Below the pieces are notes generated by a model. That model was not told the origin of the DNA. It worked only from the letters and a program-made list of their open reading frames with translations, and did no database searches. From Maricaulis sp. (GTDB lineage Bacteria > Pseudomonadota > Alphaproteobacteria > Caulobacterales > Maricaulaceae), in the NCBI GenBank assembly GCA_029251785.1, contig JAQXCQ010000004.1:1-44839 (forward strand): a DNA stretch of 44,839 bases, written 5' to 3'. This document shows positions 8,484 to 38,295 of this stretch, in pieces (within the stretch, counting starts at the first letter, position 1; each line of letters starts with the position of its first letter). The position numbers were made by a program, and so were the translations under genes.

Positions 8484-9980
8484 ATGAGCGATCACACTTA
8501 TCGCCTGACCGGTGAAACCGGTGACTGGGAAGTTGTCATGGGGCTTGAAGTCCATGCGCAAGTGGTCTCCAAGGCCAAGCTGTTTTCCGGCTCGGCGACC
8601 GCCTTTGGCGGCGCGCCCAATACCCAGGTGAGCCTTGTTGATGCGGCCATGCCCGGCATGCTGCCCGTGATCAATGAGGAAGTGGTGTCCCAGGCCGTCC
8701 GTACCGGTTTGGGCATGGGCTCCAAGATCAATCTATATTCGCGCTTTGATCGCAAGAATTACTTCTATCCCGACCTGCCACAGGGCTATCAAATCTCGCA
8801 GTTTGAATTCCCGATCGTTGGCGAAGGCGAGCTGGAATGCGAGCGCGAGGATGGCTCCCGCTTCAATGTCGGTATTGAGCGCCTGCACCTGGAACAGGAT
8901 GCCGGCAAGTCGATTCATGATCTTGATCCCAATTCTACCTATGTCGATCTAAATCGCTCTGGTGTGGCGCTGATGGAGATCGTCTCCAAGCCGTATATCC
9001 GCTCACCGGAAGAGGCCTCGGCCTATGTCACCAAATTACGCACATTGCTGCGCTATCTGGGAACCTGTGGCGGTGACATGGAAAAAGGCCAGCTGCGCGC
9101 CGACGTCAACGTCTCTGTGTGTCGCCCCGGCGATTACGAGAAATTCCGTGATGGGGGTGACGATTTCTCGCATCTTGGCACACGTTGCGAGATCAAGAAC
9201 GTCAACTCGCTCCGCTTTATTCGCCAGGCCTCAGAATATGAAGCCCGCCGCCAAATTGAAATCCTTGAAGAGGGTGGCAAGATTGATCAGGAAACGCGCC
9301 TGTTTGACTCCGTCACCGGTGTCACCCGTTCGATGCGCTCCAAGGAAGAAGCGCACGATTATCGCTACTTCCCAGACCCAGACCTGTTGCCGCTCGAGCT
9401 AACCGAGGACTTTGTCGATCAAATCCGCAGCGAACTTCCCGAGCTGCCCGACGCAAAGCGCCGCCGGTTTGTTGAAGATTTTGGTCTGTCAGAATATGAC
9501 GCTGGCGTTCTGGTCTCCGATCAGTCCCGTGCGGCATATTATGAAGCCGTTGCCGCCGGCCGTGACCCCAAATTGGCTGCGAACTGGGTCAATAATGAGC
9601 TGTTTGGTCGCTTGAACAAAGAGAGTTTGGGCATAGGCGAGACGCCGATTTCAGCGGACCAATTGGGCAAGCTGGTTGCCCTCATCAGTGACAAAACAAT
9701 CTCCGGCAAGATCGCCAAGGATGTCTTTGAAATCCTGTGGACGGATGGCGGCGATCCGGCACGGATCGTCGAAGATCGGGGCATGAAGCAGGTCACCGAC
9801 ACGGGAGCGATCGAAACAGTCATCGATCAATTGATCGCGGATAATCCCGATCAGGCCGCGCAGGTCAAAGAGAAGCCAAAGACCATGGGCTGGTTCGTTG
9901 GGCAGGTGATGAAAGCCATGCAGGGCAAGGCTAACCCGCAGGCTGTGAATGAAATTTTGCGTAAGAAATTTGAGCTGTGA
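8484..9980 (+). CDS. gatB: Asp-tRNA(Asn)/Glu-tRNA(Gln) amidotransferase subunit B
   Basis: 498-residue kinase/amidotransferase subunit. It activates the mischarged Glu or Asp on the tRNA with ATP and amidates it using ammonia from GatA. GatB hallmarks are present: [13 protein letters not shown] near the start, [47 protein letters not shown], and the tRNA-binding YqeY-like C-terminal domain ending [20 protein letters not shown]. It is preceded by a purine-rich site (AAAAAAGGACG). A stem-loop follows the stop. Confidence 0.97.
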
Positions 9981-14201: not shown

Positions 14202-14927
14202 TCAATTATTGATTTCGTTTGCTATGGCGTAAGAAAAGGCTTGGTCCAACGGGATGATCCCCGTGACATATTGCTCAACGAAGACGTTGATTTCAGCGAT
14301 GGTCGACCGAGGAACGAAGACGATGTCATGACGGCGTAATTGCAATTCGTCGACATTGCCGCGCCCTCTAAGGGCATCACTCACATCCACCGTTCGCATC
14401 ATCAGGCCGCCGCCTGGCATGCGCCTGAGCACGACGACCTTGCCGCGCGCAGCTGAATTCTGGAACCCGCCGGCCAGCATCACGGCTTCTAATGCGCCCA
14501 CCGGACCTGTCAGAGCGACCAGTCCGGGCGAATTGACCTCACCACCCACGATAATATTCTGCGGCCCGAGAGCGGCCCGTCTCACCTCAACGATCGGCGA
14601 GACCAACACACTTCTTGCGTAAGCATCGGCAATTACATTTGCGATCTCGTGATCAGTTCGATCGGCGACCATGACATTTGCCAGAAGCGGCAGGCTGACC
14701 CGGCCATCCGGCCCGATCAATGCCACGCGAGATAATTCCGGAGCGCTGTGAACGGTCACGTCGATACTGTCCCCCGGGAAAAACCGATATTCGGGGTCAG
14801 ATGCTTGCCAGGCCGCAAAATGCCCGCTGCCCCAATTGGCCGTGGGAATTTCGGCGGAAGGTGAGCTGGCACAGCCTGAAAGGCCCAGGCCGATGGATAA
14901 AGGTATGACCAGAGATAAAACGCGCAT
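14202..14927 (-). CDS. hfsD: Holdfast/polysaccharide export outer-membrane lipoprotein, Wza family
   Basis: 241 residues from ATG 14927 (AAAGGTG ribosome site); longer in-frame starts would bury the signal. A lipoprotein signal ends in LSGC with Cys19. Then come a Poly_export domain (about 40-120: YRFFPGDSIDVTVHSAPELS and VSLPLLANVMVADRTD) and an SLBB-type domain (about 125-200: IIVGGEVNSPGLVALTGPVGALEAVMLAGGF). The C-terminal residues (VEQYVTGIIPLDQAFSYAI) would cross the outer membrane as in Wza. It forms the exit channel for the polymer. HfsD identity rests on its divergent position next to the hfsA-hfsB-hfsC-type operon and the whole locus content. Confidence 0.85.
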   Translation of the reverse strand: MRVLSLVIPLSIGLGLSGCASSPSAEIPTANWGSGHFAAWQASDPEYRFFPGDSIDVTVHSAPELSRVALIGPDGRVSLPLLANVMVADRTDHEIANVIADAYARSVLVSPIVEVRRAALGPQNIIVGGEVNSPGLVALTGPVGALEAVMLAGGFQNSAARGKVVVLRRMPGGGLMMRTVDVSDALRGRGNVDELQLRRHDIVFVPRSTIAEINVFVEQYVTGIIPLDQAFSYAIANEINN

Positions 14928-14977
14928 GCTCGCACCTTTGTTCACGACGGTAAGAATAGATTTTTCTGCTGTTATGG

Positions 14978-14992
14978 ATAAGAAAAAATTAA
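14978..14992. promoter_or_regulatory. Candidate CtrA box between hfsD and hfsA
   Basis: ATAA-GAAAAAA-TTAA, which on the minus strand reads TTAA-N7-TTAT, one mismatch from the Caulobacter CtrA consensus TTAA-N7-TTAA. It lies in the 89-base divergent gap, 51 bases before the hfsD start and 25 before the hfsA start. In Caulobacter, holdfast production is tied to the cell cycle; direct control here is inferred. Confidence 0.35.
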
Positions 14993-15016
14993 GCGCGCAG
15001 ACCGTCTTATGCTGGG

Positions 15017-16561
15017 ATGACAACATCGTACTCGAATCAAGGCGACGAATTGCAATCATCAGGTCATCTGTCTGCGTCTTCGCGCGGGCAACTGGATTTG
15101 TTCGACGTCATCGCTTTGGCTTGGTCCGAGCGGGGTTTCATCGTCCTGGTGTTTGCCATTTTATTCGCAGCCGGCGCGACCGCTTCCGTGTTGTTGCTGA
15201 AGCCGAGTTATCAGGCGCATCTGCCGCTCATTGTCATGCTGGAAGATAATGCGGCACCCGCAACAGCCGGTTTGGGCGGTGCGTTCATGCTCGACCAAAT
15301 CATGCAATCCGAAAGCGAATTGCTCAATTCTGAAGCCGTTCGCCGCCGAGCGCTTGCGTCTATCGGACCGGCCGCAGTCCTTGGAGAAGCCGGTTTGATA
15401 AATGCCGAGCCGCTTGCCCTGCGTGCCATGCGGGAGGGTTTTACTGTCACACGCGCGCCCAATGCCACGGTGCTAACGGCCAGTTATAATGCTCCCTCAG
15501 CCGATACATCCGCCCGCGTGCTCAACGCCATCGTGGATGCCTACCTCATTTTTCGCGAGGACGTATTGGTTGAGGTTGGTTTTGAGGGGGTAGTCGAGCG
15601 ACGGCGCGCCGCCGATCTCGCGCTGGTCCAAACACAAAATGCTCTGGATGAGTTTCTAGCGACAAATGATTTGGTTAGTTTCGCCGCGGATCAAGCCGCC
15701 GCAGAAGCCAGTGTTGCCACACTCCAGGATCGCCTGCGTACCGCCCGGGTCGACCGCGATTCCGCTGCGGCGGGCGTAACGGCGTTGGGCACGCGCATCA
15801 GTAATGTTCCGTCACAAATCGAATTGTACACTGAAAACGGCGTCACCTCGACACTTCTGGATTTACGGGCGGAACGCGCGCGATTGTTGTCGCGATATCA
15901 GCCGACCGCGCCAGCCGTCATCGCGATAGATCGTGAGATAGCAGCGATGACGGCCTTTATCGCCACTGGAGCGCCGGCTGGTCAGGGCGTGATAAGGACC
16001 GGTCTGAACCCTGTCAGGCAGGCGATGGAGACGGATCTGGCTGTCCGGCAAACCAATGCGAGAACCGCAGCGGAGCGGGTCATTGAGCTTGAGCGTCAAT
16101 TACGGACTGCGCGCGCAGAAATCGCGCGATTGCGGCCATTGGAGTCTGAATTTACGTTGCTGACACAGAGCATCACCGCCGCAACAAGCGCAGCGGCTGG
16201 CCTCGCTTCACAGGAGGCGGCCGCAGCGGCACGTCGGTCCGGCACCGCCGGCGCGGCGGATTCTGTGCGGGTCTTCGAGCGGGCGTTGCCGCCATTCCAA
16301 GCGACATCGATGAAAAAACTTGGCATTATTGCGTCCTTCGTGATCGCTCTCGGCACAGCCATGTTTTTCGGTCTCATCCGCGGCTATTGGCGTGGGTATA
16401 TCGACGCGCGTGCGGCCCGTCCTGTGTCAGCACCGCGTCAGCCTTCAAATCCAGCTCAATCTGGGCCGGCTAGCGTGCCTTCAAATCCTGAAATTATGCC
16501 CGCCATCGATGAATTAGCAGATCTGCCTGTCTTGGCGCGCATTGGTGACCGCGCCGCGTAA
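15017..16561 (+). CDS. hfsA: Holdfast polysaccharide co-polymerase, Wzz/GumC type
   Basis: 514 residues with the two-helix Wzz topology: a cytoplasmic head including LDLFDVIALAWSERG, TM1 at about 41-61, a long periplasmic domain with alternating Ala/Glu/Arg-rich coiled-coil stretches (about 180-400), TM2 at about 435-455, and a Pro/Ser-rich cytoplasmic tail. The tail ends with ELADLPVLARIGDRAA, which resembles the linker that joins the co-polymerase to the tyrosine-kinase domain in fused Wzc/ExoP proteins. Here the ATPase-like partner is a separate gene starting about 40-70 bases on. Controls chain length and passes the polymer to HfsD. First gene of a plus-strand operon with hfsB and hfsC. 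Confidence 0.85.
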   Translation: MTTSYSNQGDELQSSGHLSASSRGQLDLFDVIALAWSERGFIVLVFAILFAAGATASVLLLKPSYQAHLPLIVMLEDNAAPATAGLGGAFMLDQIMQSESELLNSEAVRRRALASIGPAAVLGEAGLINAEPLALRAMREGFTVTRAPNATVLTASYNAPSADTSARVLNAIVDAYLIFREDVLVEVGFEGVVERRRAADLALVQTQNALDEFLATNDLVSFAADQAAAEASVATLQDRLRTARVDRDSAAAGVTALGTRISNVPSQIELYTENGVTSTLLDLRAERARLLSRYQPTAPAVIAIDREIAAMTAFIATGAPAGQGVIRTGLNPVRQAMETDLAVRQTNARTAAERVIELERQLRTARAEIARLRPLESEFTLLTQSITAATSAAAGLASQEAAAAARRSGTAGAADSVRVFERALPPFQATSMKKLGIIASFVIALGTAMFFGLIRGYWRGYIDARAARPVSAPRQPSNPAQSGPASVPSNPEIMPAIDELADLPVLARIGDRAA

Positions 16562-16631
16562 GCACAGCGTTAACCTCAATTCATCAGGTTAGTGACAAGT
16601 GATTCGAGGCGCGCCATGGGCGCTAGTGCAT

Positions 16632-17261
16632 ATGAATTTGACCAATGAATTGTCCCAGCTGATCGATCAGCTTGAGCCTATCGCCCGCCCGGGCGGGCAG
16701 GGCCGTGCGCTTATGGTGATGGGCGCAGGACGCGGTGACGGCGCGTCAACGATCGCGCGGGAAATCGCACGTCTGACGGCGCTGCGTTCGCAGCGTGGTG
16801 TCTGGCTATTTGACCTCGATTTCAGCACAAATCCCCAGGCCAAGGCCACCCGCGCTCATGGGGGCACCTATGACGCAACATTCGGTCGAACACCATTTTG
16901 GTCTGTGCAAACGGATGGTGGCCGCGCGCGAGTCGTTGCGCGTCAGACCGTGATTGAAAATTTATTTGTGACCGAATTACAGCGTGATGCCGGGCGGGTC
17001 AGTCAGATTGGGCTGCGACCCAGTGAGGCATATTGGCGTGCCGTGAGAGATTCGATCGATATCGCGATCATAGATGTGCCAGGCAATGCCACCGCGCCAC
17101 TATCAATGGTGGCGGATCTTGATGGTGTCATTCTGGTCGCCGACGAGCGGCAACGCAATTCAGCCGGGCTTCTCGCCCGACGCCAGGCCATCGAAAGCCG
17201 TGGTGGCGTAGTCGCCGGAATGATCCTGAACCGCTCGCCGGTGTCACGGCGGGCGGCATGA
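16632..17261 (+). CDS. hfsB: CpsD/BY-kinase-like ATPase partner with degenerate Walker A
   Basis: 209 residues from ATG 16632; a GTG at 16599 would add eleven residues, and neither has a convincing ribosome site. The fold is that of the CpsD/Wzc ATPase domain: a P-loop region VMGAGRGDGASTIAREIARL, a Walker A' strand VWLFDLDF (Asp-Leu-Asp), IDIAIIDVPG as the Walker B-like strand and GVILVADERQRNSAGLL. The lysine expected in the GK[ST] of the P-loop is Ala, and no tyrosine cluster follows at the C-terminus, which ends NRSPVSRRAA. So it is probably not a working tyrosine kinase and may act as a structural partner of HfsA. Its stop overlaps the start of hfsC by four bases (ATGA). Confidence 0.8.
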   Translation: MNLTNELSQLIDQLEPIARPGGQGRALMVMGAGRGDGASTIAREIARLTALRSQRGVWLFDLDFSTNPQAKATRAHGGTYDATFGRTPFWSVQTDGGRARVVARQTVIENLFVTELQRDAGRVSQIGLRPSEAYWRAVRDSIDIAIIDVPGNATAPLSMVADLDGVILVADERQRNSAGLLARRQAIESRGGVVAGMILNRSPVSRRAA

Positions 17262-18517
17262 GCCGTGCGGCGATAGTCGATCCGAATTTTCTTCGCCCTT
17301 GGCGTTCAGCCCCAACACTGGCAGGTACGGGTCTGCTCGAAGCCGGTCTGGCTATTCTCTGCCTGTTTTTATTCTCCCAAGGTTTGGTTGGGCCTCTCTT
17401 CGCCGATCCCGCTAACCCAGAGGCGTCCGCTATTCTAAGGCTGATATGGCTGCCAGTTTATGCTGTGACCGCGGTCTTGTTGATCGCCAGACCCGGGGCC
17501 GCACTTGAGGTCTTTGGGCGCAATCGTCTCATCCTCGCCCTGGTGGGGCTGACCTTGGTTTCGGTTATCTGGTCTGTCTCTCCGGATACCACTTTGCGTC
17601 GCAGTTTTGCGCTCATCATGACAACATTATTTGGTCTATGGCTGGCCTCACGCTGGTCCTGGACGGAATTAATCATCTTGATCGCATCCATGTTCGCGGG
17701 CCTGGTGGTTTTGAGTACAATCATGGCCCTGGCTGTTCCCTCTCTCGGGGTTGATCATGCCGTTCATGCGGGGGCCTGGAAGGGCATCTGGTGGGAAAAA
17801 AATACGCTGGGTGCCATGATGGCGTGGGGCTCACTCAGTTTTTGCGCGGCGGCCATGATGGACCGCAAACGCGCCCCGCTCTGGGCAGGCTTTGCCCTTT
17901 GGGCGACGGCATTGGTTCTCCTTTCGACCTCCAAAACAGCATTGCTGGCCTGGATGATTGGTCCGGCAGGTTTGATTGGCATATTGCTGTGTCGTCAAGG
18001 GTTTGGCTTCGCCACATTGATGATCTTCTTGCTGATAACCCTGTCTTCGACCCTCGGATTGCTTCTACTGATTGCGCCGGTAGAGGCCCTGCAGGCATTA
18101 GGACGAGACGCGACACTGACCGGGCGTACAGATATTTGGGGTGTGTTGGTCAATCAGGCGCTGGAAGCGCCATGGACCGGCTTCGGCTACAAGGCATATT
18201 GGGTCGCCGAGAATGGTCCGGTTTTCTGGGTCCGCCAAGCGACGGGCTGGGATGTTCCGACCGCCCACAATGGTTGGATTGAATTAGCGCTGGCAATCGG
18301 TATTCCGGGCGTTGTTGGCATGGCATTTCTATATGTACGGACCTTTGCCCGAGCGTTTGGTGGCCTGTTTCGAGGGCCGGAAGCCTATTGGTCGATCGCC
18401 TTCATCGCCATGATCGGAATTGTCTCCATCAGCGAAAGCAATCTGATGCAGCAAAATTCACTTGGCTGGGTTTTATTTGTTGCGACTTCGGCGAAATTGG
18501 CTTTGAGCCGTCATTAA
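17258..18517 (+). CDS. hfsC: Holdfast repeat-unit polymerase, O-antigen polymerase/ligase (Wzy) family
   Basis: 419-residue inner-membrane protein with about ten to eleven helices. The Wzy_C-type region is clear: a periplasmic loop with GRTDIWGVLVNQALEAPWTGFGYKAYW (key residues Gly-Arg-Thr-Asp-Ile-Trp) followed by VPTAHNGWIELALAIGIPG, where the His-Asn pair is typical. It would polymerise flipped lipid-linked repeat units in the periplasm. HfsC is assigned from the order hfsA-hfsB-hfsC and the locus; Caulobacter has a second polymerase (HfsI), so paralog choice is uncertain. The stop shares TTAA with the stop of the convergent glycosyltransferase gene. Confidence 0.82.
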   Translation: MSRAAIVDPNFLRPWRSAPTLAGTGLLEAGLAILCLFLFSQGLVGPLFADPANPEASAILRLIWLPVYAVTAVLLIARPGAALEVFGRNRLILALVGLTLVSVIWSVSPDTTLRRSFALIMTTLFGLWLASRWSWTELIILIASMFAGLVVLSTIMALAVPSLGVDHAVHAGAWKGIWWEKNTLGAMMAWGSLSFCAAAMMDRKRAPLWAGFALWATALVLLSTSKTALLAWMIGPAGLIGILLCRQGFGFATLMIFLLITLSSTLGLLLLIAPVEALQALGRDATLTGRTDIWGVLVNQALEAPWTGFGYKAYWVAENGPVFWVRQATGWDVPTAHNGWIELALAIGIPGVVGMAFLYVRTFARAFGGLFRGPEAYWSIAFIAMIGIVSISESNLMQQNSLGWVLFVATSAKLALSRH

Positions 18518-19431
18518 TCCGTCAGTGCCGCCGCGCCATAAAACTTCGGTTCAAATGGGCCGAACCAAACGATCTTGCCCGCGGCCTGGGCGGAGCGATC
18601 CACGAGGGAGGCCGCGACTGAAAGCCGAAATAAACTCGCCCCCAGTGCAAGCGGTAGGTAGACCGCCAATTGTCCCACCCCGATCCCCATCCACATCAAC
18701 GTGCGAACCCAGTCTCGTCTGTCGTGCATGACCGCATTTTGTGTCGCGCTCTGGCCGAAGGCAAAACTGCGCGCCAGCAGGCGCTTCCAGCTGGTTCGGT
18801 CGGGGGCAACGCATTCGATCGCATGCGCGCGGGCAGACCATGCGAATGTCGCACCTTGGTCCTCCAGGGCGGCGAAAAAAGCGTCATCTTCGCCACCGGT
18901 CTCGTTAAGCGCGGGTTTGAACGGCTCGTCTGAAAGCGAAAAAGCGTCGCGATCGATCAACGAGTTTCCGCATCCAAACGGTTTCGTGAGGGCCTCATCG
19001 TCCTCAGCACCAATACGGGAATACAGTCTTTGTGCGAGAGAGCGTCGCAGATGATTTTCCTCGTTCGTCTCGCCGCGAAGCGGGCCGAAAACGACCGTTC
19101 GGCCCAGAGCTCGAGCCGTATAAAGAAGCGATTCAAGCCAGTGCGGGCAGGCGATTTCATCATCGTCCAGAAAGGCGATATACCGCCCGGTTGCCGCCCT
19201 CATTCCAGCATTTCGAGCATTGGCGACGCCCGGTTCGGCCTCATGTACATAGGTCACATCAAAGCGAGCAACGGCCTGCATGTTGTCGATAATCGGGCGC
19301 GCACTGGCGTCTGGGTCATTATCGACCACCACAAGCTGATCAGGGGGGCAACTTTGCCCCAGCAAGCTGGTGATCGCTGCCCGCAAGCCAGCCGGCCGGC
19401 GGAACGTGGGTATGATTACAGATGTCGTCAT
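18514..19431 (-). CDS. GT2-family glycosyltransferase with C-terminal membrane segment (HfsL-like candidate)
   Basis: 305 residues, GT-A fold: TSVIIPTFRRPAGLRAAI at the start, VVDNDPD for the first nucleotide-sugar acid pair, EPGVANARNAGM, and the metal-binding triad FLDDDE at about 88-92. A GGEDDAFF motif supplies the catalytic-base acids. A hydrophobic stretch at about 245-275 anchors it to the inner membrane. It is the last gene of the hfsF-hfsG-hfsH block, overlapping hfsH by four bases (ATGA). Caulobacter holdfast synthesis needs several glycosyltransferases besides HfsE (HfsG, HfsJ, HfsL); this one is most simply the HfsL counterpart, but that is inference from context. Confidence 0.85.
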   Translation of the reverse strand: MTTSVIIPTFRRPAGLRAAITSLLGQSCPPDQLVVVDNDPDASARPIIDNMQAVARFDVTYVHEAEPGVANARNAGMRAATGRYIAFLDDDEIACPHWLESLLYTARALGRTVVFGPLRGETNEENHLRRSLAQRLYSRIGAEDDEALTKPFGCGNSLIDRDAFSLSDEPFKPALNETGGEDDAFFAALEDQGATFAWSARAHAIECVAPDRTSWKRLLARSFAFGQSATQNAVMHDRRDWVRTLMWMGIGVGQLAVYLPLALGASLFRLSVAASLVDRSAQAAGKIVWFGPFEPKFYGAAALTD

Positions 19432-20207
19432 GATGTCAGCCCCGATCGTGTTCCAAATTCTTTTGATGCGTCGCCGATTGTCATCACCCTTGCACCGCTG
19501 CGCTCCACCGCATCACAAACCGAACGAAGTTGGTCCGGTGTACAACCCCATTCGGATGGGTTTTCCTGCACATCGTGGGCGTAAAAGATCAACCATCCCG
19601 GATGCAGGATTAGCGCTTCAGTCGCCTCGACCGCCTTGGCGATTCCAGCAGGGCCACCATCAAGCGGCACGGAATTGAGCAGATTGAGGTCGACACTGCC
19701 GCGATTAATTCGTGATCGAACCCCCCGCAGGGTCGAAAAGCGTTCGTCGAGAAGACGCTTGGACGCTGCCGTCGCTTCCCCGTACGGAAACGCAAAGCTG
19801 GTCATGTCCTGTGTCAGGCCCATTTGCTTGAGAGCACTCTGATTATGTTCGACACTTTGCATAATGTCGCTGACATTCGCTTTCGAGCAGTCGAGGTGTT
19901 CGTATGTGTGGCAACCGATTTCATGCCCGGACGCTTCCAGGCGGTGCAAATCCTCTGCGTCAAACATTTCTCCATGATGGTTTAACTGTCCGGCAAACAC
20001 GGCACTGGCGTAGTAGGTTCCACGCCAGCCATGGTCTTCCAAGGCTTGCGCACCCTGGATAGCGGCTGATTTTGGAAAGTCGTCAAACGAGAAGCTGACA
20101 ATGGCATGATCAAGGTCAACCGAGATGGGTGTACGCGCGCTAAACCGCGCCCATTGTCGATTGACGCGGGACCAGATGCTGGATGAGGGAAGATAGGGTG
20201 CGTTCAT
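19428..20207 (-). CDS. hfsH: Polysaccharide deacetylase (NodB domain), holdfast deacetylase
   Basis: 259 residues. The NodB motifs can be read in order: SFSFDDFP (Asp42-Asp43), GCHTYEHLD with metal ligands His100 and His104, FAFPYGEA, and the C-terminal LIFYAHDVQ histidine. In Caulobacter HfsH partly deacetylates N-acetylhexosamine in holdfast, which makes it sticky and retained at the cell. No signal peptide is visible, so it acts in the cytoplasm, as expected for an enzyme working before flipping. ATG 20207 is preceded by GGAGG seven bases away and overlaps the upstream stop by one base (TAATG); an earlier ATG at 20240 is unlikely. Confidence 0.88.
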   Translation of the reverse strand: MNAPYLPSSSIWSRVNRQWARFSARTPISVDLDHAIVSFSFDDFPKSAAIQGAQALEDHGWRGTYYASAVFAGQLNHHGEMFDAEDLHRLEASGHEIGCHTYEHLDCSKANVSDIMQSVEHNQSALKQMGLTQDMTSFAFPYGEATAASKRLLDERFSTLRGVRSRINRGSVDLNLLNSVPLDGGPAGIAKAVEATEALILHPGWLIFYAHDVQENPSEWGCTPDQLRSVCDAVERSGARVMTIGDASKEFGTRSGLTS

Positions 20208-21151
20208 TAGATCGCCTCCGCTGTCCAGCTCGCGCGCCACAGTTTGAGTGCTGTCGTGCGAAGCCTTATCGGCAATTCATCGCGCCGGGCGGCCGTCGCC
20301 CACAGGCCGCGCAACAGGCGTTGGAACGGTACAATGCCCAGCATACGCGCCGCGCGGGCCCCGGGCAGTTCAGATAACTCAGGATGCTTCTCTAGGAGGC
20401 GCGCATAATTGGTCGCGCCTATTCGGAATTTGTCCAGGAGGGTATCGCTAGATTGCAAGCCGTCATGCCCGGCTGGATTGTCGACATGGATAAGGCAATA
20501 CCCCCGGTCGGCCCGGACCGCCCAGTCAACATCCTCCCAACCCCAACCCGTGAAGTCTTCGTCGAAGGGAACATCCTGCATAACAGCGGCACGCACGAGC
20601 AAATTGCTTGAGCAAAAAGCTGTCGCGCCGATCTCCTGACGCATGACGGCATCATTCTGATCGCTCACTTGAGACAAGGCCGCGTGGAGCGCGAGGCTCG
20701 GATCGGCCGGTTCGTGACTTTCATAGCCTCCAAATGCCGCATCAAAATCGTCCGCCTCTATCCGTTCAAGATAGGCATTTAAGAAGGCTTCATTTCCGGG
20801 GGCCATATCTGCGTCCAGATAGAGCAACCAGCGCCCCCGGGCGTGGCGCGCCAGCACATTCCGCCCGGCAGCTCGGCCCAGATTGCAATTCGATGCCAGC
20901 AATCGCGCTGGCGTGCTCAAGGCGCGAACAGTGCGTGCCACCGCAGCACGACCCGCCTTGTCAGGGCTGCCGTCGTCGAACAGGACAATTTCAATGTCGC
21001 GTCGCGCGCCAATCAACGCATTCAATGACGCAGCGAGTGGCGTTGGATCATCCCCATAAAACGGGATGAGAACCGACAGTGCGAAATCATCGCTGACAGA
21101 AGCCGCTCCATTGGCAAGCTCTTCGATGACGTGATCGGTGGGCTGAGTCAC
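20207..21151 (-). CDS. hfsG: GT2-family glycosyltransferase, HfsG position
   Basis: 314 residues from GTG 21151; its GTGA overlaps the flippase stop by four bases and GGAGG lies seven bases upstream, deciding the start against longer frames. GT-A motifs: LSVLIPFYGDD, IVLFDDGSPD (Asp59-Asp60), LLYLDADMAP (DAD 113-115) and GWGWEDVDWAVR, the galactosyl/chondroitin-type acceptor-side motif of GT2/GT7-like enzymes. No membrane helix. The gene order flippase, glycosyltransferase, deacetylase equals the Caulobacter hfsF-hfsG-hfsH order, which is why I use the symbol. It would add a sugar (in Caulobacter probably an N-acetylhexosamine) to the lipid-linked precursor. Confidence 0.78.
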   Translation of the reverse strand: MTQPTDHVIEELANGAASVSDDFALSVLIPFYGDDPTPLAASLNALIGARRDIEIVLFDDGSPDKAGRAAVARTVRALSTPARLLASNCNLGRAAGRNVLARHARGRWLLYLDADMAPGNEAFLNAYLERIEADDFDAAFGGYESHEPADPSLALHAALSQVSDQNDAVMRQEIGATAFCSSNLLVRAAVMQDVPFDEDFTGWGWEDVDWAVRADRGYCLIHVDNPAGHDGLQSSDTLLDKFRIGATNYARLLEKHPELSELPGARAARMLGIVPFQRLLRGLWATAARRDELPIRLRTTALKLWRASWTAEAI

Positions 21152-22605
21152 GGCTTTACCTCCGCGGGGTTGAGCAGGAAACGAGCCCGGGACAACCAGG
21201 TTCGGCATTGTGCGATATTCAGCATCAGGGCTGCGGCGACATAAATGAGAGCGCCTAACGAGGCTTGGACAAGAAGCATCAACCAAGCCGCCTCAAATTG
21301 TGGAAGCGCGAACACGGCGGCCGCCATAATCAGAGTTGCAATCGCGGCCTTGAGCCAGTCCATCCAGGGCAGGGGCAGTGCAAAATGTCGACGCCCGAGA
21401 ATGGCGCAAACCATCAGCGCGATTGTATAGGCAATCACCGTCGAAATGGCCGCGCCGACAATCCCCATCAATGGAATCAAAACCAGATTAAGAGTCAGAT
21501 TTAGTCCTGCCGCCAATGCCATGATTGTGGCCATCGCACTGGTTTTCCGGGTCAACGTAAACGCCTCATGAAAATAATAGGTCATCATTCCATTCATGAG
21601 GCCGGAAAGAGCGATCCAGGGTAGAATGCTCGCCGCCTCGGCTCGAAGACTTTCGCCGATAACAACGGTGGTTAGAGGTCCGGCTATGAGCGCGAGGCCC
21701 GCGGCCGCTGGGAAGGCGATCAGTGCCATCAAACCAGCCGCCTGCCCGGCGACTTCCTTCGCAGCGTCGGTGCCATTTTGTTCCAGCGCCCTGATCGTCA
21801 ATGGCCACACTGCTGCACCAAACCAGATAAAAATGATGTCGAGCAAACGGTCCGCCAATCCGTAACCGGCAGCATACATTCCAACAGCCCCTTGGCCGAG
21901 GAAGAGGGCGATCAGGAAACGGTCACCCACCGACAATAAGTGTTCAAAAACAAGAGAAAATGAAATGGGTACGCCATAGCGCGCGTAAGTTTTTGTCCGC
22001 ACTGATTGGTGGCGACCGCCGCGTGTCTTTCGCAGCATGACGGGTAAGTCCACGACGACCATAAGCGCTGCAGCGGCCGCGATCCCGGCGAAAATACCGG
22101 CTGCGCCCAAATCTGTCGTGAGTATTAGCCCAACACCGGCGAAGAAACCGACCATCAAGCCACTTGCTTCCAAAGCCGAATAACGCGTGATGTCTGCCGC
22201 GGCGCGGTGAGTCTCAAGCCCGATTTGGAGCAGGCCACGCAGCAACATGGAGGCAAGCGCAAAGGCCAATACGGTTTTGGTTTGTGCGTCGAGGGGCGCA
22301 AATACAATGACCAGCGTCAGCAAGCCGCCCACAACAACCGCCGCAAACCCAAAGGTGTTGTAAACTGTCAGCAAATGGTCCCTCAACCGGCCCCGACTGT
22401 CGGCCCGGGCATGAAATCGCGCCACCGCTGATTCAAGCCAGGTAAAGGATGCCATGTGAATGAGGGAGACGGCGGCAATGACCAGCGAGTACCGTCCGAA
22501 CTCTTCCGGCGACAATATCCGTGTAAATACCGCCACGCCGCCGAAGCCAACCAAGGCTTGAGCGGCTTGCACCGGTAGATAACCAAGTAAATGTCGTCCA
22601 AGCAT
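21148..22605 (-). CDS. hfsF: Holdfast polysaccharide flippase, Wzx/MATE-like
   Basis: 485 residues with about twelve to fourteen membrane helices, the typical Wzx length. Family wording at the N-terminus: MLGRHLLGYLPVQAAQALVG then AVFTRILSPEEFGRYSLV, as in Polysacc_synt-type flippases. The start at 22605 has GGAG six bases upstream. A much longer frame is open upstream, but it would cross the promoter region shared with hfsK and adds a non-membrane Arg/Lys-rich stretch, so I reject it. Flips the finished lipid-linked repeat to the periplasm. First gene of a four-gene minus-strand operon with overlaps of 4, 1 and 4 bases. Confidence 0.85.
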   Translation of the reverse strand: MLGRHLLGYLPVQAAQALVGFGGVAVFTRILSPEEFGRYSLVIAAVSLIHMASFTWLESAVARFHARADSRGRLRDHLLTVYNTFGFAAVVVGGLLTLVIVFAPLDAQTKTVLAFALASMLLRGLLQIGLETHRAAADITRYSALEASGLMVGFFAGVGLILTTDLGAAGIFAGIAAAAALMVVVDLPVMLRKTRGGRHQSVRTKTYARYGVPISFSLVFEHLLSVGDRFLIALFLGQGAVGMYAAGYGLADRLLDIIFIWFGAAVWPLTIRALEQNGTDAAKEVAGQAAGLMALIAFPAAAGLALIAGPLTTVVIGESLRAEAASILPWIALSGLMNGMMTYYFHEAFTLTRKTSAMATIMALAAGLNLTLNLVLIPLMGIVGAAISTVIAYTIALMVCAILGRRHFALPLPWMDWLKAAIATLIMAAAVFALPQFEAAWLMLLVQASLGALIYVAAALMLNIAQCRTWLSRARFLLNPAEVKP

Positions 22606-22773
22606 GGAACGCTCCGTTCGCCTCAGACGCGATACCTGCAAGATGAGTGCCGCGCCTGAGGCGATAATAGGTACAGATTTTGCGAGAGTTACCGCAGAAA
22701 ACCGGGTGTTAAGCCTCCCCGTATTAAGCATGTCCCAAACAGGGGCATAATGAGGCCAGAGGAGCGTGCCGGA

Positions 22774-23862
22774 ATGACGCGGCTGACTGTAGATATCAAA
22801 CGTCCCAGCGAGCTGTCTTCGCTTGAACGTGAGGCGTGGAAAACGTTTTGCGCGGCCAACCCGGTGCTTGGCAGCCCCTACTTTGCGCTCGAATTTGCCG
22901 AATGTTGCGAGGAGGCACGCGACGATACCCGGGTCCTGGTCATTTTGCGCGCCGCAAGGCCGGTTGGGTTCTTGCCATTGCAAATCGGAAAAATTGGCTG
23001 TGTTCGTCCGCTTGGCGGTCCCTTGGGTGATCTGCATGGCTTAATTTGCGAGCCGACGACTGAGCTGGATCTGCGCGAAGTCCTGGCCGCGGCGCATATC
23101 CCAATGTTCGACTTCAATAGCGGTCTCGTCAGCCAAGCCAGTTTTGCGGAAGCCGCCCACGATGTTGAAGGATCCTGGGTTATTGATCTTCAGGACGGAT
23201 TCGAGGCCTGGCAGGCGGCTCGGAAAAGCGTGGCTCCGAAGGTCATGAAAAATTTGCGAACCCGACGTCGTCGTCTCGAAGAATTGGAGGGGGGCTTCCG
23301 GTTTGTTATGGCGGATACCAGCGCCCACGCGTTCGAAACTTTGATTGAGTGGAAACGTGCTCAATATCATCGAACCAACGTATTTGACGTGTTTTCCGTC
23401 GATTGGACCCGGCGACTGCTCGAAGCAATACGCCGCCGCGAGAGCGACAGTTTTTACGGCGTTTGCTCATCGCTCTATATCGGAGACAAGATTGCCGCCG
23501 TCCATTTTGGGATGGCAACAGATCGGCTCTGCCATTACTGGTTCCCGGCCTATAGTGGTGATGCATCACACCTTAGTCCCGGGCTTTTATTGCTCGTAGA
23601 GATGTCGAAAACCGCCGCTGAACTTGGTTTGCAGGGTGTGGAATTGGGGCCAGGCAATTATGGGTTTAAAAAGGATTTGGCCAGTTATCAGGTCGGAATT
23701 GGCTCCGGCTATATCGGACAACCCTCCATGCAATTGATAACCCGTCAGCTCACGCAGGCCGTTGTGCGGGGGATTGAAACGGTCCCGATCGGCCCCATTC
23801 GAGATTGGCCCGGAAAAGCCGTTCGAAAGCTCGATCGTCTCGCTGGGTTTTACGCGGCGTGA
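22774..23862 (+). CDS. hfsK: FemAB/GNAT-like N-acyltransferase of holdfast synthesis
   Basis: 362 residues (an ATG at 22750 with AGGGG before it would add eight). The C-terminal half is an Acetyltransf_6/FemAB-like GNAT domain: VMKNLRTRRRRLEELEG, FETLIEWKRAQYHRTN, the acetyl-CoA-side strand YIGDKIAAVHFGM, HYWFPAYS and the terminal VELGPGNYGFKKDLASYQ. In Caulobacter HfsK is a predicted acyltransferase that modifies holdfast and affects its cohesion. It diverges from hfsF across about 170 bases, and the following glycosidase gene overlaps its stop by four bases, so the two are co-translated. Confidence 0.8.
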   Translation: MTRLTVDIKRPSELSSLEREAWKTFCAANPVLGSPYFALEFAECCEEARDDTRVLVILRAARPVGFLPLQIGKIGCVRPLGGPLGDLHGLICEPTTELDLREVLAAAHIPMFDFNSGLVSQASFAEAAHDVEGSWVIDLQDGFEAWQAARKSVAPKVMKNLRTRRRRLEELEGGFRFVMADTSAHAFETLIEWKRAQYHRTNVFDVFSVDWTRRLLEAIRRRESDSFYGVCSSLYIGDKIAAVHFGMATDRLCHYWFPAYSGDASHLSPGLLLLVEMSKTAAELGLQGVELGPGNYGFKKDLASYQVGIGSGYIGQPSMQLITRQLTQAVVRGIETVPIGPIRDWPGKAVRKLDRLAGFYAA

Positions 23863-25049
23863 TCGCGTTTAGTCGTAGAGCTGTTTTACTCGCCGGAGCT
23901 GCCTCGGTTTTTGGCGGGTCAGTGTCGACGGCGAAAATACTTCCTTCCAGCAAACTGGATCTTTGGAATAACGCGACCGGACCGCATCTGCGCGGCGCGG
24001 TTCTCGCTCAGAGGCGCGTCTACACCAGTCTTGATGGCTCTGTTTTTTTGGGCGACGGTGCCGTTGGCACACCCGTCACCGACGCGGCTTTGCAGGCCCT
24101 GGTACAGAGCGGCGCAAATCTGGTTATCCTCTCGCATCCTGGTACCTACACCGAACAGGCCCCCCATATTCCGGACCCCGCCATCGAGGCGCATCTCGAC
24201 GACATGATAGATCGTTGTGAGCAGGTGGGTTTATTCGCAGTCATCGGTTTGCGGACCGGCCCTGGACGCAGTGAGTTCACGTTTCACAAGGCGGATGCGG
24301 GCAGCTGGTTTGATGAAGCGATGATCGACGATTCTGTCTGGACATCTCAAGCAGCGCAAGATGGCTGGGCGCGAATGTGGGAAAGCTTGGCAACACGCTA
24401 TCGCCATCGCCCCAATGTTGCGGGCTATTTGATGATGGTGGAACCGAACGCCAATCAATCTGCGCCCGACGGGCAGGGCGGTATTCTGGACGAATGGGAT
24501 CCGGAACGTCTCGCTCGCTTTACCGATGGTCGGCTCAGCGACTGGCCCAGCCTCTCTCGTCGATTGGCACGGAGAATCCGATCGGTCGATCCCGAGACAC
24601 CGATCCTTGTGAGTCCCGACGGATTTGCCCATCGACGCTTCGCAAGCCTTTTGGATCTGAATGACACATCCGGCATGGTTTTGGCCGTGCATAACTATGC
24701 TCCGCGCCGATACACGCATCAGGCGCGAGAGGATGATCTTGATTTCGCACCGCACGAGGCGGACTTCGCGCCGATGAATGCCACACACTGGATGGTCGGT
24801 GAATTTGGCACGGCACGCTGGGCGCCCCGCGCGTCGGAATATCTGCGGCAACAGGTCTCTGCATTCGAACAGGCAGGCGCCGGCTGGGCCGTGTTTCGCT
24901 GGGATAGTGGTTGGCGCGTTTATGAGCGCCAGGAAAATATGTTCAACCCACTATACGGAGCTCAACCAGACAATACAGACCTCCCGCAAACCGCCCCAAT
25001 GTTGGAGATGCTGAGCACCCTTTGGGGCTCAAATACGCGACGTCCCTGA
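23859..25049 (+). CDS. Tat-exported GH5-like glycoside hydrolase coupled to hfsK
   Basis: 396 residues starting at GTG 23859, whose GTGA overlaps the hfsK stop. The N-terminus FSRRAVLLAGAASVFGG has a twin-arginine motif, a hydrophobic core and a small-residue end (VSTA), indicating Tat export. The mature part is a TIM-barrel of glycosidase clan A, closest to GH5 cellulase-like proteins: LRGAVLAQRR, ANLVILSHPGTYTE, the acid/base region GYLMMVEPNAN (Glu195) and the nucleophile region HWMVGEFGTARW (Glu315). Both glutamates are present about 120 residues apart, as expected. Note Val rather than the usual Asn before the acid/base Glu. Substrate unknown; the location suggests trimming or remodelling of the holdfast polymer in the periplasm. 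Confidence 0.85.
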   Translation: MIAFSRRAVLLAGAASVFGGSVSTAKILPSSKLDLWNNATGPHLRGAVLAQRRVYTSLDGSVFLGDGAVGTPVTDAALQALVQSGANLVILSHPGTYTEQAPHIPDPAIEAHLDDMIDRCEQVGLFAVIGLRTGPGRSEFTFHKADAGSWFDEAMIDDSVWTSQAAQDGWARMWESLATRYRHRPNVAGYLMMVEPNANQSAPDGQGGILDEWDPERLARFTDGRLSDWPSLSRRLARRIRSVDPETPILVSPDGFAHRRFASLLDLNDTSGMVLAVHNYAPRRYTHQAREDDLDFAPHEADFAPMNATHWMVGEFGTARWAPRASEYLRQQVSAFEQAGAGWAVFRWDSGWRVYERQENMFNPLYGAQPDNTDLPQTAPMLEMLSTLWGSNTRRP

Positions 25050-25063: not shown

Positions 25064-26596
25064 TCAACGAATATTGATTTTGTCGCCCAACAGGGCAGGC
25101 AGTGTTTTCGCCATGATCCACAAGTCGAACAAGAAACCGGCTTTGGCAATATAGTCGATGTCCCATTGGATGCGCTCGCGTGCCGCCTCTGGAGTGTGTA
25201 ATGGTCCACGAGATCCATTGACCTGCGCCCAGCCAGTAATGCCCGGTTTGACGCGATGGCGGTGCGCATATTCCGCGACCAGATTGGATGTTTCGGTCCC
25301 GCCTGTCTTCATGCTGGGGGCATGTGGCCGGGGGCCAACCAGCGACATATCACCAGTGATAACGTTCCAAAATTGCGGCAATTCATCGAGGCTGGTTTTC
25401 CGCAAGAAATTTCCCAGACGGGTGACCCGCGGGTCGTCCAGTTCAACCTGCCGGACAGCCTTTGATGACTGCTTTGGGTCATGCCGCATGGTGCGAAACT
25501 TAAGCACAGTGATGCGTCGGCCATTGAAGCCTTCTCGTTGCTGGCGAAACAAGGATGGCCCGGAACTGTCAATTCGGACCGCCAGCGCAATCAAAGCCAT
25601 GACAGGCAGGGCACAGATCAAAAGTGCCGATCCAACGACCAAGTCCTGCGCACGCTTGGCGAACAGATGCCCAAGTCGTTCTTCTTCCCCGCTCATGCGT
25701 GTCGCGTGGACGCCTACCACGTCTTCCAAACTGGTCTGGCGCGGATCAAAGCCATCTTCATCCATCAGCAGACAAACTGGTTGGGGCAAGGCCCGCAGTT
25801 TTTCCAACATTGTCTTGACCCGGGCTTCGGCCCGCGGGGTGACCGTCAGAACAATCCGGTCGATCTGCGGCAAGAGTGACCAATCAAATAATTCACGCGT
25901 GTCACCGAGATAGGGCGCACCGGCGAGCTGAGCCGGACTCCGAGACTTGCGGTCATCGAAAACGCCGACAACATTGACTGAATCTGACCCTTCATTCGCA
26001 GCCAGCAGCTTGCGCGCATTGGCCGTCGCGCCGACCAGCACGATGTTGCGAGCCAGGCGGCCCGCCTTGCTCCAGTGCCGGATCAGACCGGCATAAAATA
26101 CGTGCAATATAGTCAGACTTGTTGCTGCAATCGCCGTGAAAACGGCAATCTCGGCAGATCCGCTCGACCCAATGCTGAGTGCCAGCATAGTGGTCAGCGC
26201 TCCAGCGACGCCGATCGCAATCAAGGCGCGCGCAATACGAAAGACGGCGGAGCGACCCGGAGTGATGTGATATTGCCCGGCGACAGTCAGCAACCAGGGG
26301 GTCACCAGTACAAATCCAAGCAGGGGCAACACATCTCGAATGGAGCTGGTTAGAAAATTACCCTCTGACAAAAAAAGTGTCGCCGCACCGGTCAGAACGT
26401 AGATGATTGCCAGATCAACACTTCTCAGCGTATGTCCAAGCGCCTTGCGATTGACCCGGTGCTCGGGTGTGCGCGATTGGGCCCGTATCTGGGCACGGGT
26501 CAGGGACGCTGCGTCATTGGTAAGCGGTCGAATTGTCTCGGACGTATCGTTTGCCGGACCATTTTGCACCGGTTGGCGTGAGCTTGAATATTTCAC
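25064..26596 (-). CDS. hfsE: Polyprenyl-phosphate hexose-1-phosphate transferase, initiating enzyme of holdfast synthesis
   Basis: 510 residues of the polyisoprenyl-phosphate hexose-1-phosphate transferase family (WbaP-like). An N-terminal set of about four membrane helices (about 55-185), a nucleotide-binding-like middle domain (RNIVLVGATANARKLL, VVGVFDDRKS) and a C-terminal catalytic domain (about 310-510) with a membrane helix, FRQQREGFNG, LKFRTM, RKTSLDELPQFWNVITGDMS, LVGPRPH and KPGITGWAQVNG are all visible. It transfers a sugar phosphate (glucose in Caulobacter, from published work as I recall it) to undecaprenyl phosphate. The gene is separate from the hfsF block and converges on the glycosidase gene with only a 14-base gap. 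Confidence 0.85.
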   Translation of the reverse strand: MKYSSSRQPVQNGPANDTSETIRPLTNDAASLTRAQIRAQSRTPEHRVNRKALGHTLRSVDLAIIYVLTGAATLFLSEGNFLTSSIRDVLPLLGFVLVTPWLLTVAGQYHITPGRSAVFRIARALIAIGVAGALTTMLALSIGSSGSAEIAVFTAIAATSLTILHVFYAGLIRHWSKAGRLARNIVLVGATANARKLLAANEGSDSVNVVGVFDDRKSRSPAQLAGAPYLGDTRELFDWSLLPQIDRIVLTVTPRAEARVKTMLEKLRALPQPVCLLMDEDGFDPRQTSLEDVVGVHATRMSGEEERLGHLFAKRAQDLVVGSALLICALPVMALIALAVRIDSSGPSLFRQQREGFNGRRITVLKFRTMRHDPKQSSKAVRQVELDDPRVTRLGNFLRKTSLDELPQFWNVITGDMSLVGPRPHAPSMKTGGTETSNLVAEYAHRHRVKPGITGWAQVNGSRGPLHTPEAARERIQWDIDYIAKAGFLFDLWIMAKTLPALLGDKINIR

Positions 26597-36090: not shown

Positions 36091-36153
36091 GTGCGCGCGA
36101 TGAGCTTGTTCGAAATGGCGGGCATGATAAAGTGCGGGCAGGGGAGACCATTA

Positions 36154-38295
36154 ATGTCACGCACACGCTTGTCGATTTTCGCCACCGCACTGATCATTGC
36201 TCTAATTTTGTCCGCCGCCTTGATCTTGCCCGGTGGTGGCCCGGGGATGACGCTCGCGCAAGCACAGGCCGAGGCAGAGTCCCATGCCAGTGCCCGGATC
36301 GTTCGAAATGAATTTGGCATTCCGTCCATTTATGGCGATAGCGATGCAGATACCGCATTCGGGCTAGCCTATGCCCATGCCGAGGATGACTGGCAGACAA
36401 TCCAGGGCATGCTCGTCGCGGCCCGGGGCACGATGGCCCGATATCAGGGGCAAGACGCTGCTCCCATTGATTACCTCGTACAATTATTTCGCATCCGCGA
36501 GACGGTAGACGCGCGTTATCAGTCCGAGCTGACCGTGCAGACACGGGCGATGTTGGACGGTTACGCCCGCGGTTTGAATCTTTACGCCACTGAGCACCCC
36601 GATGAGACTTGGGATGACGTTCTTCCTATTCGCGGCGAGGATGTGGTGTCTGGATTCGTGCTTCGAACTCCCTTCATGTACGGGTTGGATGGTGCCCTCG
36701 CGGAATTGTTTAGTGATGAGCGACAGCATTCGATCTCGCTGAGCGATAGCGAAACCGCATTTCAAGTGATCGAGGGCGCACAGCTGCCTTTCGGCAGCAA
36801 CGCGCTTGCTGTCGCGCCCTCTCGTTCAGACGATGGCGCAACGCGCCTCTTGATCAATTCCCACCAGCCATTCGAAGGCCCGGTCGCCTGGTATGAAGCG
36901 AGCCTGTGGTCCGGTGAGGGCTGGAACATGACGGGCGCAACCTTTCCTGGAGCACCGCTCATTCTTCATGGATACAGCCGCGAGCTGGGTTGGGCCCATA
37001 CGGTCAACAAGCCGGATTTGGCCGACATATACGTGCTGGAGACGGACGGAGACCGTTATTTGCTCGATGGAGAATGGTTGGAGCTGGAACATGCGACGGC
37101 CCGACTCGACGTGCGCATATGGGGTCCGATCCGCTGGACGGTGTCGCGGGATTTGTGGTGGTCCCGTCATGGCCCCGTTATACGCACGGAACATGGTGAT
37201 TACGCCGTTCGCTATTCGGGAAATGATCAGGTCGGCGCCGTCGAGCAATGGTATCAAATGAACCGCGCGACCGACCTGGACAGTTGGATGGCGGCCATGA
37301 ACCGTAATGCCATTCCATCACTCAACGCGATCTATGCCGATGCCTCGGGCCACATCGCCTACGTCTATAATGCTCGTATGCCGAACCGGATCAACGGTTA
37401 TGATTGGACACAATACCTGCCGGGTGATCGCGCAGAACTGATTTGGGATAGCTATCACCCGCTGACCGCCATGCCGATCTATGTCGATCCGCAGAGCGGC
37501 TGGCTCCTCTCGACCAATCAGACCCCTTTTGACGTCAGCGATGAGAGCTCAAATTTGAGCCAAGATGATTATTCGGCAACATTCGGCATACCCCCGCGCT
37601 ACTCCAACCGTGCCCTGCGCGCCCTCCCATTGTTCCGGGCAGAAGAGACAATTTCTCGGGACGACATTTTGAGAATTAAGTTTGACAATTCCTATGCTAG
37701 GGAAGGCGCTGTCGGACGCCTTGTCGATCAAATTCTTGCGATGGATATGTCCGACGACCCAGAGCTGGAGATCGCACGCCAAAGCCTGGCCCAGTGGGAT
37801 TTGGCAACCAATATCACCAATCGACACGCCGCCCTTGGCGTGCTGACCGCTATTCGTTGCGTCGGTAATTTACACACTGACGATCCCTGGTTGATGGACC
37901 CGCGCCAGGCTTTCGCCGAAGCTGCCGCGGAGCTGCAAGACAGCTTTGGCCGACTCGATCCTGAATGGGGCGAGGTAAACCGCATGGTCCGTGGCGATGT
38001 TGATATTCCAGTCGATGGCGGACCTGATGTCATGCGGGCGATTTATGGGGCCTATCAATCCCTCGGCGAGGACGGTCGTATCCATGCGGCCGCTGGCGAT
38101 ACCTCCATCATGCTGGTCGAGTGGTTAGAAGATGGCTCATTGGTTGCGGATGCGATCCACCAATACGGATCCGCAACACTGGACATTGCATCACCTCACT
38201 ATGCTGATCAGGTGCAAATGTTTGCCGATCACGAATGGCGGCGTCTGCAGTTAGACATGCCGAATGAAGGGTATCACCCGGCGAGGCGCGACTAG
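36154..38295 (+). CDS. Penicillin acylase family (Ntn hydrolase, peptidase S45) precursor
   Basis: 713 residues from ATG 36154 (AGGGGAG seven bases upstream). An N-terminal signal/anchor (about 8-28) is followed by an alpha chain, a linker and a beta chain. The self-cleavage site is QLPFGSNALAV, so Ser215 would become the N-terminal nucleophile after cleavage of Gly214-Ser215. Supporting family residues are DEFGIPSIYG-like RNEFGIPSIYG (51-61), the LAYAHAEDDWQ motif (71-81) and the beta-chain HGYSRELGWAHTVNKPD. The SNxxAV start is intact and length is normal. Members hydrolyse amides including penicillins, N-acyl homoserine lactones or cyclic lipopeptides; the substrate is not predictable. Ends nine bases before the convergent GST-fold gene. 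Confidence 0.9.
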   Translation: MSRTRLSIFATALIIALILSAALILPGGGPGMTLAQAQAEAESHASARIVRNEFGIPSIYGDSDADTAFGLAYAHAEDDWQTIQGMLVAARGTMARYQGQDAAPIDYLVQLFRIRETVDARYQSELTVQTRAMLDGYARGLNLYATEHPDETWDDVLPIRGEDVVSGFVLRTPFMYGLDGALAELFSDERQHSISLSDSETAFQVIEGAQLPFGSNALAVAPSRSDDGATRLLINSHQPFEGPVAWYEASLWSGEGWNMTGATFPGAPLILHGYSRELGWAHTVNKPDLADIYVLETDGDRYLLDGEWLELEHATARLDVRIWGPIRWTVSRDLWWSRHGPVIRTEHGDYAVRYSGNDQVGAVEQWYQMNRATDLDSWMAAMNRNAIPSLNAIYADASGHIAYVYNARMPNRINGYDWTQYLPGDRAELIWDSYHPLTAMPIYVDPQSGWLLSTNQTPFDVSDESSNLSQDDYSATFGIPPRYSNRALRALPLFRAEETISRDDILRIKFDNSYAREGAVGRLVDQILAMDMSDDPELEIARQSLAQWDLATNITNRHAALGVLTAIRCVGNLHTDDPWLMDPRQAFAEAAAELQDSFGRLDPEWGEVNRMVRGDVDIPVDGGPDVMRAIYGAYQSLGEDGRIHAAAGDTSIMLVEWLEDGSLVADAIHQYGSATLDIASPHYADQVQMFADHEWRRLQLDMPNEGYHPARRD

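Follow-up and report, generated by a model that had tools for sequence, protein, structure and literature searches.

A GH5-family glycosidase encoded in the holdfast locus of Maricaulis is a probable holdfast-processing enzyme

Why should a predicted glycosidase be encoded among the genes that build an adhesive polysaccharide? The question is raised by a 44,839-nucleotide stretch of Maricaulis sp. (Alphaproteobacteria, Caulobacterales, Maricaulaceae; GenBank assembly GCA_029251785.1, contig JAQXCQ010000004.1, positions 1 to 44,839 of the forward strand), referred to below as the window. On its forward strand, a gene at 23859..25049 overlaps hfsK in a holdfast synthesis (hfs) locus. It encodes 396 amino acids from a GTG start, and a PF00150 match, an AlphaFold model and a Foldseek comparison place the product in glycoside hydrolase family 5 (GH5). 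The protein is probably an undescribed holdfast-processing enzyme. The reading we favour, with a probability of roughly 60%, is that of a periplasmic glycosidase of the retaining type, exported by twin-arginine translocation (Tat), that would act on the holdfast polysaccharide or on polymer intermediates, trimming or clearing it in the manner of PslG, a glycosidase of Pseudomonas aeruginosa.

A preliminary description of this DNA had proposed a survey of hfsK neighbours in relatives and allowed that the gene might stand there by chance. The survey, covering 137 Maricaulaceae genomes from 19 genera, indicates that the GH5 gene is not a chance neighbour of the hfs genes. Window-type GH5 was found in 36 genomes belonging to five of the 19 genera, with named carriers including Maricaulis salignorans, M. 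maris, Hyphobacterium indicum, Marinicauda pacifica, Alkalicaulis satelles, Glycocaulis albus and Oceanicaulis metagenome-assembled genomes (MAGs). The laboratory strain M. maris DSM 4734 (L072) also carries it. Neighbourhoods were fetched for 34 carriers besides the window, and one genome (G030) was judged from coordinates. All 34 fetched neighbourhoods contain hfs genes, and in 33 of the 36 carriers hfsK is immediately followed by GH5 (31 of the 34 fetched, the window, and G030). The loci of G071 and G072 have no hfsK but retain GH5, directly divergent from hfsF; in G069, the contig ends at GH5, and hfsK is found at the end of another contig. The 35 aligned GH5 proteins form one clade (support 99/93). 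HfsH was detected in 122 and HfsF in 125 of the 137 genomes, and all 36 GH5 carriers have both; none of the 15 HfsH-negative and none of the 12 HfsF-negative genomes has the GH5 gene. Encoded within the hfs synthesis locus and kept there across relatives, the gene resembles in this respect the hydrolases of exopolysaccharide (EPS) loci, the class of PslG, BcsZ and CcsZ.

The junction with hfsK is also conserved. The letters GTGA at 23859..23862 (forward strand) are common to the end of hfsK, whose TGA stop occupies 23860-23862, and to the start of GH5. This 4-base overlap recurs in 28 of the 32 loci with both genes; two have a 1-base overlap, and two have gaps of 1 and 3 bases. A longer GH5 reading frame is possible from a TTG at 23805, but GTG 23859 is preferred because the overlap start is the conserved one, and the start in the preliminary description therefore stands. 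The overlap suggests translational coupling of GH5 to hfsK. The stronger claim, that translation of GH5 depends on hfsK, went too far, since G071 and G072 keep GH5 without hfsK and, in a genus labelled g38, where GH5 neighbours hfsF, the fetched stretch contains no match to hfsK. Selection on the gene is seen in the ratio of nonsynonymous to synonymous substitution rates (dN/dS), which was 0.10-0.23 for GH5 and 0.10-0.21 for hfsK in the same seven pairs (dS below 0.6); ratios of up to about 0.56, obtained in pairs with higher dS, are less reliable. In the source genome, the only homologue match is the gene itself, and there is one PF00150 match.

As a component of the adhesive-polysaccharide locus, which is how the preliminary description saw it, the gene is a conserved hfs-locus gene but not a core one. 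It is an accessory gene, present in 11 of the 19 HfsH-positive genomes of the window's genus and missing from 13 of the 49 HfsH-positive genomes of the five carrier genera. Two of these 13 non-carriers are less than 70% complete (G068 and G079; the G068 locus is outside the fetched set). All 20 GH5-less hfs loci that were fetched have hfsG, hfsH and hfsK, and 19 have hfsF; the exception is that of G081. Presence and absence of GH5 change eight times on an HfsH tree of 52 rows, for which one origin in Maricaulaceae followed by repeated loss is the simple reading; some regain by exchange may have occurred. Replacement of GH5 by another gene downstream of hfsK was considered and is not general, judging from the 20 GH5-less loci, viewed with their open reading frames (ORFs) scanned in part. 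In five of the seven GH5-less loci of the window's genus, hfsE directly follows hfsK. An ATP-grasp-like gene (the label comes from a family scan of the G074 gene only) lies between hfsK and hfsE, in the place of GH5, in G074 (L177:7104-8315) and G075 (L178:6850-8118), and neither genome has a PF00150 match at 1e-6.

What kind of enzyme is encoded? The window protein scored 52.6 bits against PF00150 (cut-off 23.5, E 6e-14) in a Pfam scan, and an NCBIfam scan gave no match up to E 0.1. The AlphaFold model, built from 65 sequences, has a mean pLDDT of 91.4 and a pTM of 0.89. Its comparison with solved structures, a step that the preliminary description had suggested, returned GH5 titles for all of the top five Foldseek matches (E 7e-18 to 7e-14, TMt 0.43-0.71). 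The best solved relative is the endoglucanase TtEnd5A of Thermogutta terrifontis (PDB 8ag9, 8anx, 8b3y), matched at 6.2e-16 by phmmer, 3.3e-35 by the family profile and 7.3e-18 by Foldseek, with 19-21% identity. The positions earlier given for the catalytic pair, Glu195 and Glu315, hold: E195 (codon 24441-24443) and E315 (codon 24801-24803, forward strand), the latter the predicted nucleophile aligned with the Glu of the TtEnd5A GEF motif, align with the two catalytic glutamates of that enzyme. E195, E315, H278, Y280 and W348 are present in all 35 Maricaulaceae homologues, and the first four are invariant in the 65-row alignment (with L097 and L128 left out).

Around this pair the active site is unusual. 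An Arg on strand 2, a His on strand 3 and an Asn before the acid/base Glu are typical of GH5, without strictly defining it. Among the 35 Maricaulaceae proteins, the Arg position (residue 90) holds I, M, V, L or S, the His is replaced by Arg132 in every case, and residue 194, before the acid/base Glu, is V in 24, D in 8, E in 3 and N in none. In the window, V194-E195 is encoded at 24438..24443 (forward strand); TtEnd5A has Asn before its acid/base Glu and a His in a DLH motif, and the window protein has neither. The family placement stands on score and fold despite the replaced residues. Because three canonical residues are replaced, the substrate specificity is probably unlike that of cellulases, and the protein should not be read as a cellulase. 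Arg132 is also found in 44 of 44 and Val194 in 41 of 44 rows from outside Caulobacterales, so these changes are old. A holdfast signature in the Val for Asn at 194 was considered and rejected, as the Val occurs in those 41 external rows and in 12 of 12 rows from other Caulobacterales.

The N-terminus is of the export type. A predicted twin-arginine signal region spans 23859..23935 (forward strand, end approximate; residues 1-20 have pLDDT below 50) and carries the stretch FSRRAVLL, with R6-R7 invariant in the 35 Maricaulaceae homologues. The twin-arginine signal of the preliminary description is thus recovered as a predicted motif. Assignment was by a simple pattern, twin arginine followed by a hydrophobic stretch, which all 35 Maricaulaceae rows satisfy. 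By the same pattern, the twin Arg is present in 12 of 12 rows from other Caulobacterales (11 genomes) versus 4 of 44 rows from elsewhere. A lipobox pattern was also found in 9 of 10 rows from g38 and in no Maricaulaceae row. These features point to Tat export and a periplasmic location of the protein. Directly after the signal region, a PxGLRL stretch occurs in many GH5 rows of the Oceanicaulis/Glycocaulis type (L043-L064), and none was seen in Maricaulis rows.

Which hfs gene is the steady partner of GH5? In an order-wide sample of 398 genomes there were 44 strong matches (E <1e-40), 33 of them in Maricaulaceae, 10 in g38 (family f2) and one in family f4, and 19 further weak matches with E between 1.5e-16 and the limit of 1e-10. 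In g38, the gene is present in 12 of 15 genomes, exactly the 12 with HfsF at 1e-20, and HfsH is present in 13 of 15. Window-type GH5 stands back-to-back with hfsF in all 10 fetched g38 loci; in G444 contig ends separate the two genes, and in G445 adjacency was read from coordinates. The one g38 HfsF scanned scored 414.9 bits, compared with 427.3 for the window HfsF, both below the cut-off of 700. The pair lies outside the main g38 hfs locus, which in the seven carriers fetched (L194-L199, L201) has matches to hfsE, hfsG, hfsH, wzy, kinase, wzz and wza and contains no hfsF. Co-transfer of hfsF and GH5 between families was rejected, because on the HfsF tree the g38 proteins group with those of f2, the family to which the genus belongs (100/100).

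Of the 30 f2 loci fetched, 13 were viewed by eye, and in 9 of these hfsF has an EamA-like ORF as its neighbour, as in g38, so that either the place of hfsF is older than the gain of GH5, or GH5 was lost elsewhere. Within the fetched 1.5 kb flanks (L204-L233), hfsF of family f2 is not beside hfsE, hfsG or hfsH. The adjacency of GH5 and hfsF may be ancient and widely lost, or it may have arisen more than once. Since both scenarios imply a tie to hfsF, the recurring partner of GH5, paired with it in two families, is this flippase gene more than hfsK.

The same unusual GH5 subfamily, recognizable by FRTGPGRSEF and MVEPN, is found in Chloroflexota, Aminicenantes, Bipolaricaulota, a Theionarchaea MAG and other phyla (L078-L135). 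An EPS association of all homologues was rejected, as these external loci lack hfs-type neighbours save one distant HfsE-like gene. Two external homologues lack the acid/base Glu (L128 and L097, with A and G, respectively), L128 also the other Glu, and both are probably non-catalytic members.

A second, canonical GH5 type (L181, L234-L246) is found in some of the genomes that lack the first. It shares the Pfam family PF00150 with the window protein, but only about 20-25% identity, and several of its N-termini look lipoprotein-like by eye. Unlike the window protein, the second-type protein of G031 has the usual GH5 Arg, His and Asn. Seven second-type proteins that were compared (G003, G004, G031, G049, G081, G122, G135) are 39-63% identical to each other. 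The second type is present in 7 of the 13 non-carriers (G031, G062, G066, G070, G076, G079, G081), compared with 1 of the 36 carriers (G089), in the five carrier genera; the carrier G091 has a PF00150 match that is not of the second type. Extra PF00150 matches in 2 of 36 carriers versus 7 of 13 non-carriers give a Fisher p of 0.0005, a value that ignores kinship. In G031 the second-type gene lies between hfsK and hfsE, beside hfsE (L181:506-3141; PF00150 164.7 bits), and in G081 it is back-to-back with a relocated hfsF, 26 bases apart (L234:6825-9388). In G049 it is back-to-back with a Wzy gene (L235:7832-10246), and in G033 it lies about 1.6 kb downstream of one (L245:1793-5754). This pattern suggests partial replacement of the window-type GH5 by the second type in the same pathway. 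A PF00150 match was also obtained in Caulobacter vibrioides, one of the control genomes.

How could such an enzyme serve holdfast synthesis? In the Caulobacter model, as passages of PMC6372794 describe it, flipping of the lipid-linked unit by HfsF precedes polymerisation, which takes place in the periplasm. A glycosidase that is predicted to be exported and is encoded beside hfsF would most likely act there as well. Once HfsF has carried lipid-linked units across the inner membrane, the enzyme would act on the holdfast polymer or its intermediates, cutting periplasmic strands that have grown too long, become stuck or gone astray. Cutting would set chain length and keep the export path clear, much as PslG may do for Psl, and in some relatives the different GH5 type would fill the same place.

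Other roles can be imagined for an exported GH5 protein. A tentative one keeps it in synthesis as a partner of HfsF, editing the lipid-linked repeat unit or the first polymer on the periplasmic side by removing or transferring a sugar. Its -1 site would then be remodelled to take an uncommon sugar, perhaps an amino or an acylated one. Two distantly related GH5 types would have been recruited to this place, and the same core pathway would yield chemically different holdfasts in different species, depending on which of the two types, if either, is present. Were this true, a Wzx/Wzy pathway would include a step, so far unreported, after flipping and before polymerisation. That the protein is instead released to the outside and loosens mature holdfast for detachment, without acting in synthesis, we consider unlikely. 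Hydrolases of EPS loci have often been suggested to aid dispersal (passages of PMC7710045), and patchy presence between sister species suits an ecological trait, but the N-terminus predicts periplasmic delivery only, and the pairing with the gene of an inner-membrane flippase points to synthesis.

The replaced active-site residues (a variable residue, Arg132 and Val, Asp or Glu at 194 for the usual Arg, His and Asn) and the external homologues L097 and L128 without catalytic Glu could be taken to indicate an altered GH5, serving as a glycan-binding scaffold or as a transglycosidase, which would link holdfast chains or cap them instead of cutting them by hydrolysis. Retaining enzymes can indeed transglycosylate. 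With those two homologues set aside, the invariance of E195, E315, H278 and Y280 in 65 rows, and of W348 in 35 of 35, makes this reading improbable. Most improbable is an unrelated nutritional or housekeeping beta-glucanase that sits in the hfs locus by accident. Speaking for it, the nearest relatives of solved structure are endoglucanases, the loci of distant homologues (Chloroflexota, Aminicenantes and others) are not of the hfs type, and HfsH-negative relatives carry other GH5 genes. An accident would, however, have to account for the place directly 3' of hfsK in 33 of 36 carriers with a conserved stop-start overlap, for the separate hfsF adjacency in g38, for the other type of GH5 that neighbours hfsF in G081 and hfsE in G031, and for the joint absence of GH5, HfsH and HfsF in G393 and G407.

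Several observations weigh against a periplasmic holdfast-trimming glycosidase. The structural matches superpose loosely (rmsd 5.6-6.6 Å for the top five), and three usual GH5 active-site residues are replaced. The 13 absences among 49 HfsH-positive genomes include six without any PF00150 match at 1e-6, thus neither GH5 type; holdfast genes are therefore kept even where GH5 is wholly lacking. Five of the seven second-type cases belong to one clade of the HfsH tree, reducing them to about three events, and those five genes have no hfs-type neighbours in the fetched stretch. The HfsH-negative genomes G015, G020, G021, G041 and G058 have strong PF00150 matches, so GH5 genes presumably of other kinds are not tied to the holdfast. 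The 12 g38 pairs belong to a single lineage and amount to one event. Homologue loci outside Caulobacterales match none of 12 window-derived profiles, GH5 and one HfsE-like gene excepted; the latter is about 8 kb upstream in L085, and several of these loci have short flanks. Finally, the role of PslG itself is disputed, as passages of PMC6813494 note that an earlier study by another group found it dispensable.

Little is known so far about the chemistry of the holdfast, a natural glue that holds strongly under water. An enzyme matched to it by selection would serve as a direct tool to cut the polymer and read its structure, and close Maricaulis relatives, some with the gene, some without it and some with an apparent substitute, allow its effect on the glue to be compared readily. 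A role in processing would also extend to Wzx/Wzy holdfast loci the rule that EPS loci encode their own hydrolase.

The remainder of the window locus is laid out as follows. Upstream of GH5, and overlapping it, hfsK encodes a GNAT-type acyltransferase (22750..23862, forward strand, start as listed; PF13480 2.6e-36, profile match 22783-23859). Divergent from it on the reverse strand is hfsF, the Wzx-type flippase gene (21148..22605, start at MLGRHLLG, profile match reaching 22632; NF050818), followed on the same strand by the glycosyltransferase gene hfsG (20207..21208, start approximate; NF050819 267 bits, below the cut-off of 500), the polysaccharide deacetylase gene hfsH (19428..20240; NF050820 225 bits, below 400) and a GT2 glycosyltransferase gene (18514..19431; PF00535 4.3e-28). 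Convergent with GH5, hfsE for the initiating sugar-phosphate transferase occupies 25064..26596 on the reverse strand (NF050817 473 bits, below 750). An export/polymerisation block at 14202..18517 comprises genes of Wza type (14202-14927, reverse strand, a provisional label), Wzz type (15017-16561; PF02706 25.7 bits), kinase-like type (16599-17261; no Pfam match and weak NCBIfam matches only) and Wzy type (17258-18517; PF04932 48.5 bits). In other genomes, HfsF of G217 (L169) and Wzy of G073 (L038) are each broken into two reading frames, and an internal stop was reported in some HfsF matches (L211 of G225 is listed), which may reflect assembly errors, decay or match overrun. Unrelated window genes identified by Pfam are penicillin amidase, a Na+/H+ exchanger with TrkA-N, and GatB (36091-38295, 41590-43527 and 8484-9980, in that order).

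How does the GH5 gene compare with known systems? We found no glycosidase described as a member of the holdfast pathway in the literature searched, most of it outside subscription journals. Fig. S1D of PMC5362036 draws the hfs clusters of Maricaulis, Oceanicaulis and Woodsholea, and the GH5 gene may figure there. Passages of PMC6372794 report that the holdfast is sensitive to chitinase and lysozyme, and according to passages of PMC8449245 Hirschia baltica has its hfsK at a site apart from the hfs locus, and biofilm was unaffected when the gene was deleted. The AlgL- and BcsZ-type parallel drawn in the preliminary description survives as functional analogy at most: AlgL and BcsZ (GH8) are polymer-clearing enzymes of EPS loci from other families, and PslG and the GH5 enzyme CcsZ are nearer precedents. 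No PslG, BcsZ or AlgL was among the matches listed from phmmer, Foldseek and profile searches of solved structures. PslG belongs to GH39, a different family from that of the window protein. CcsZ of Clostridioides difficile (GH5_25, PDB 6uje) is a GH5 enzyme encoded in a cellulose synthase locus and is matched at 2.2e-21 by the family profile and 3.5e-12 by Foldseek, but it serves a cellulose synthase pathway in a Gram-positive bacterium, unlike the hfs locus of the window. Of the CcsZ residues H123, H124 and N163, named in the -1 and -2 sites in passages of PMC7710045, the His and Asn equivalents are replaced in the window protein. PslG, encoded in the psl locus, is like the window gene product a glycosidase of a Wzx/Wzy-type EPS locus; passages of PMC6813494 place it mainly at the inner membrane and also in the periplasm, assign it two catalytic Glu residues, and report that its loss or inactivation lowered Psl.

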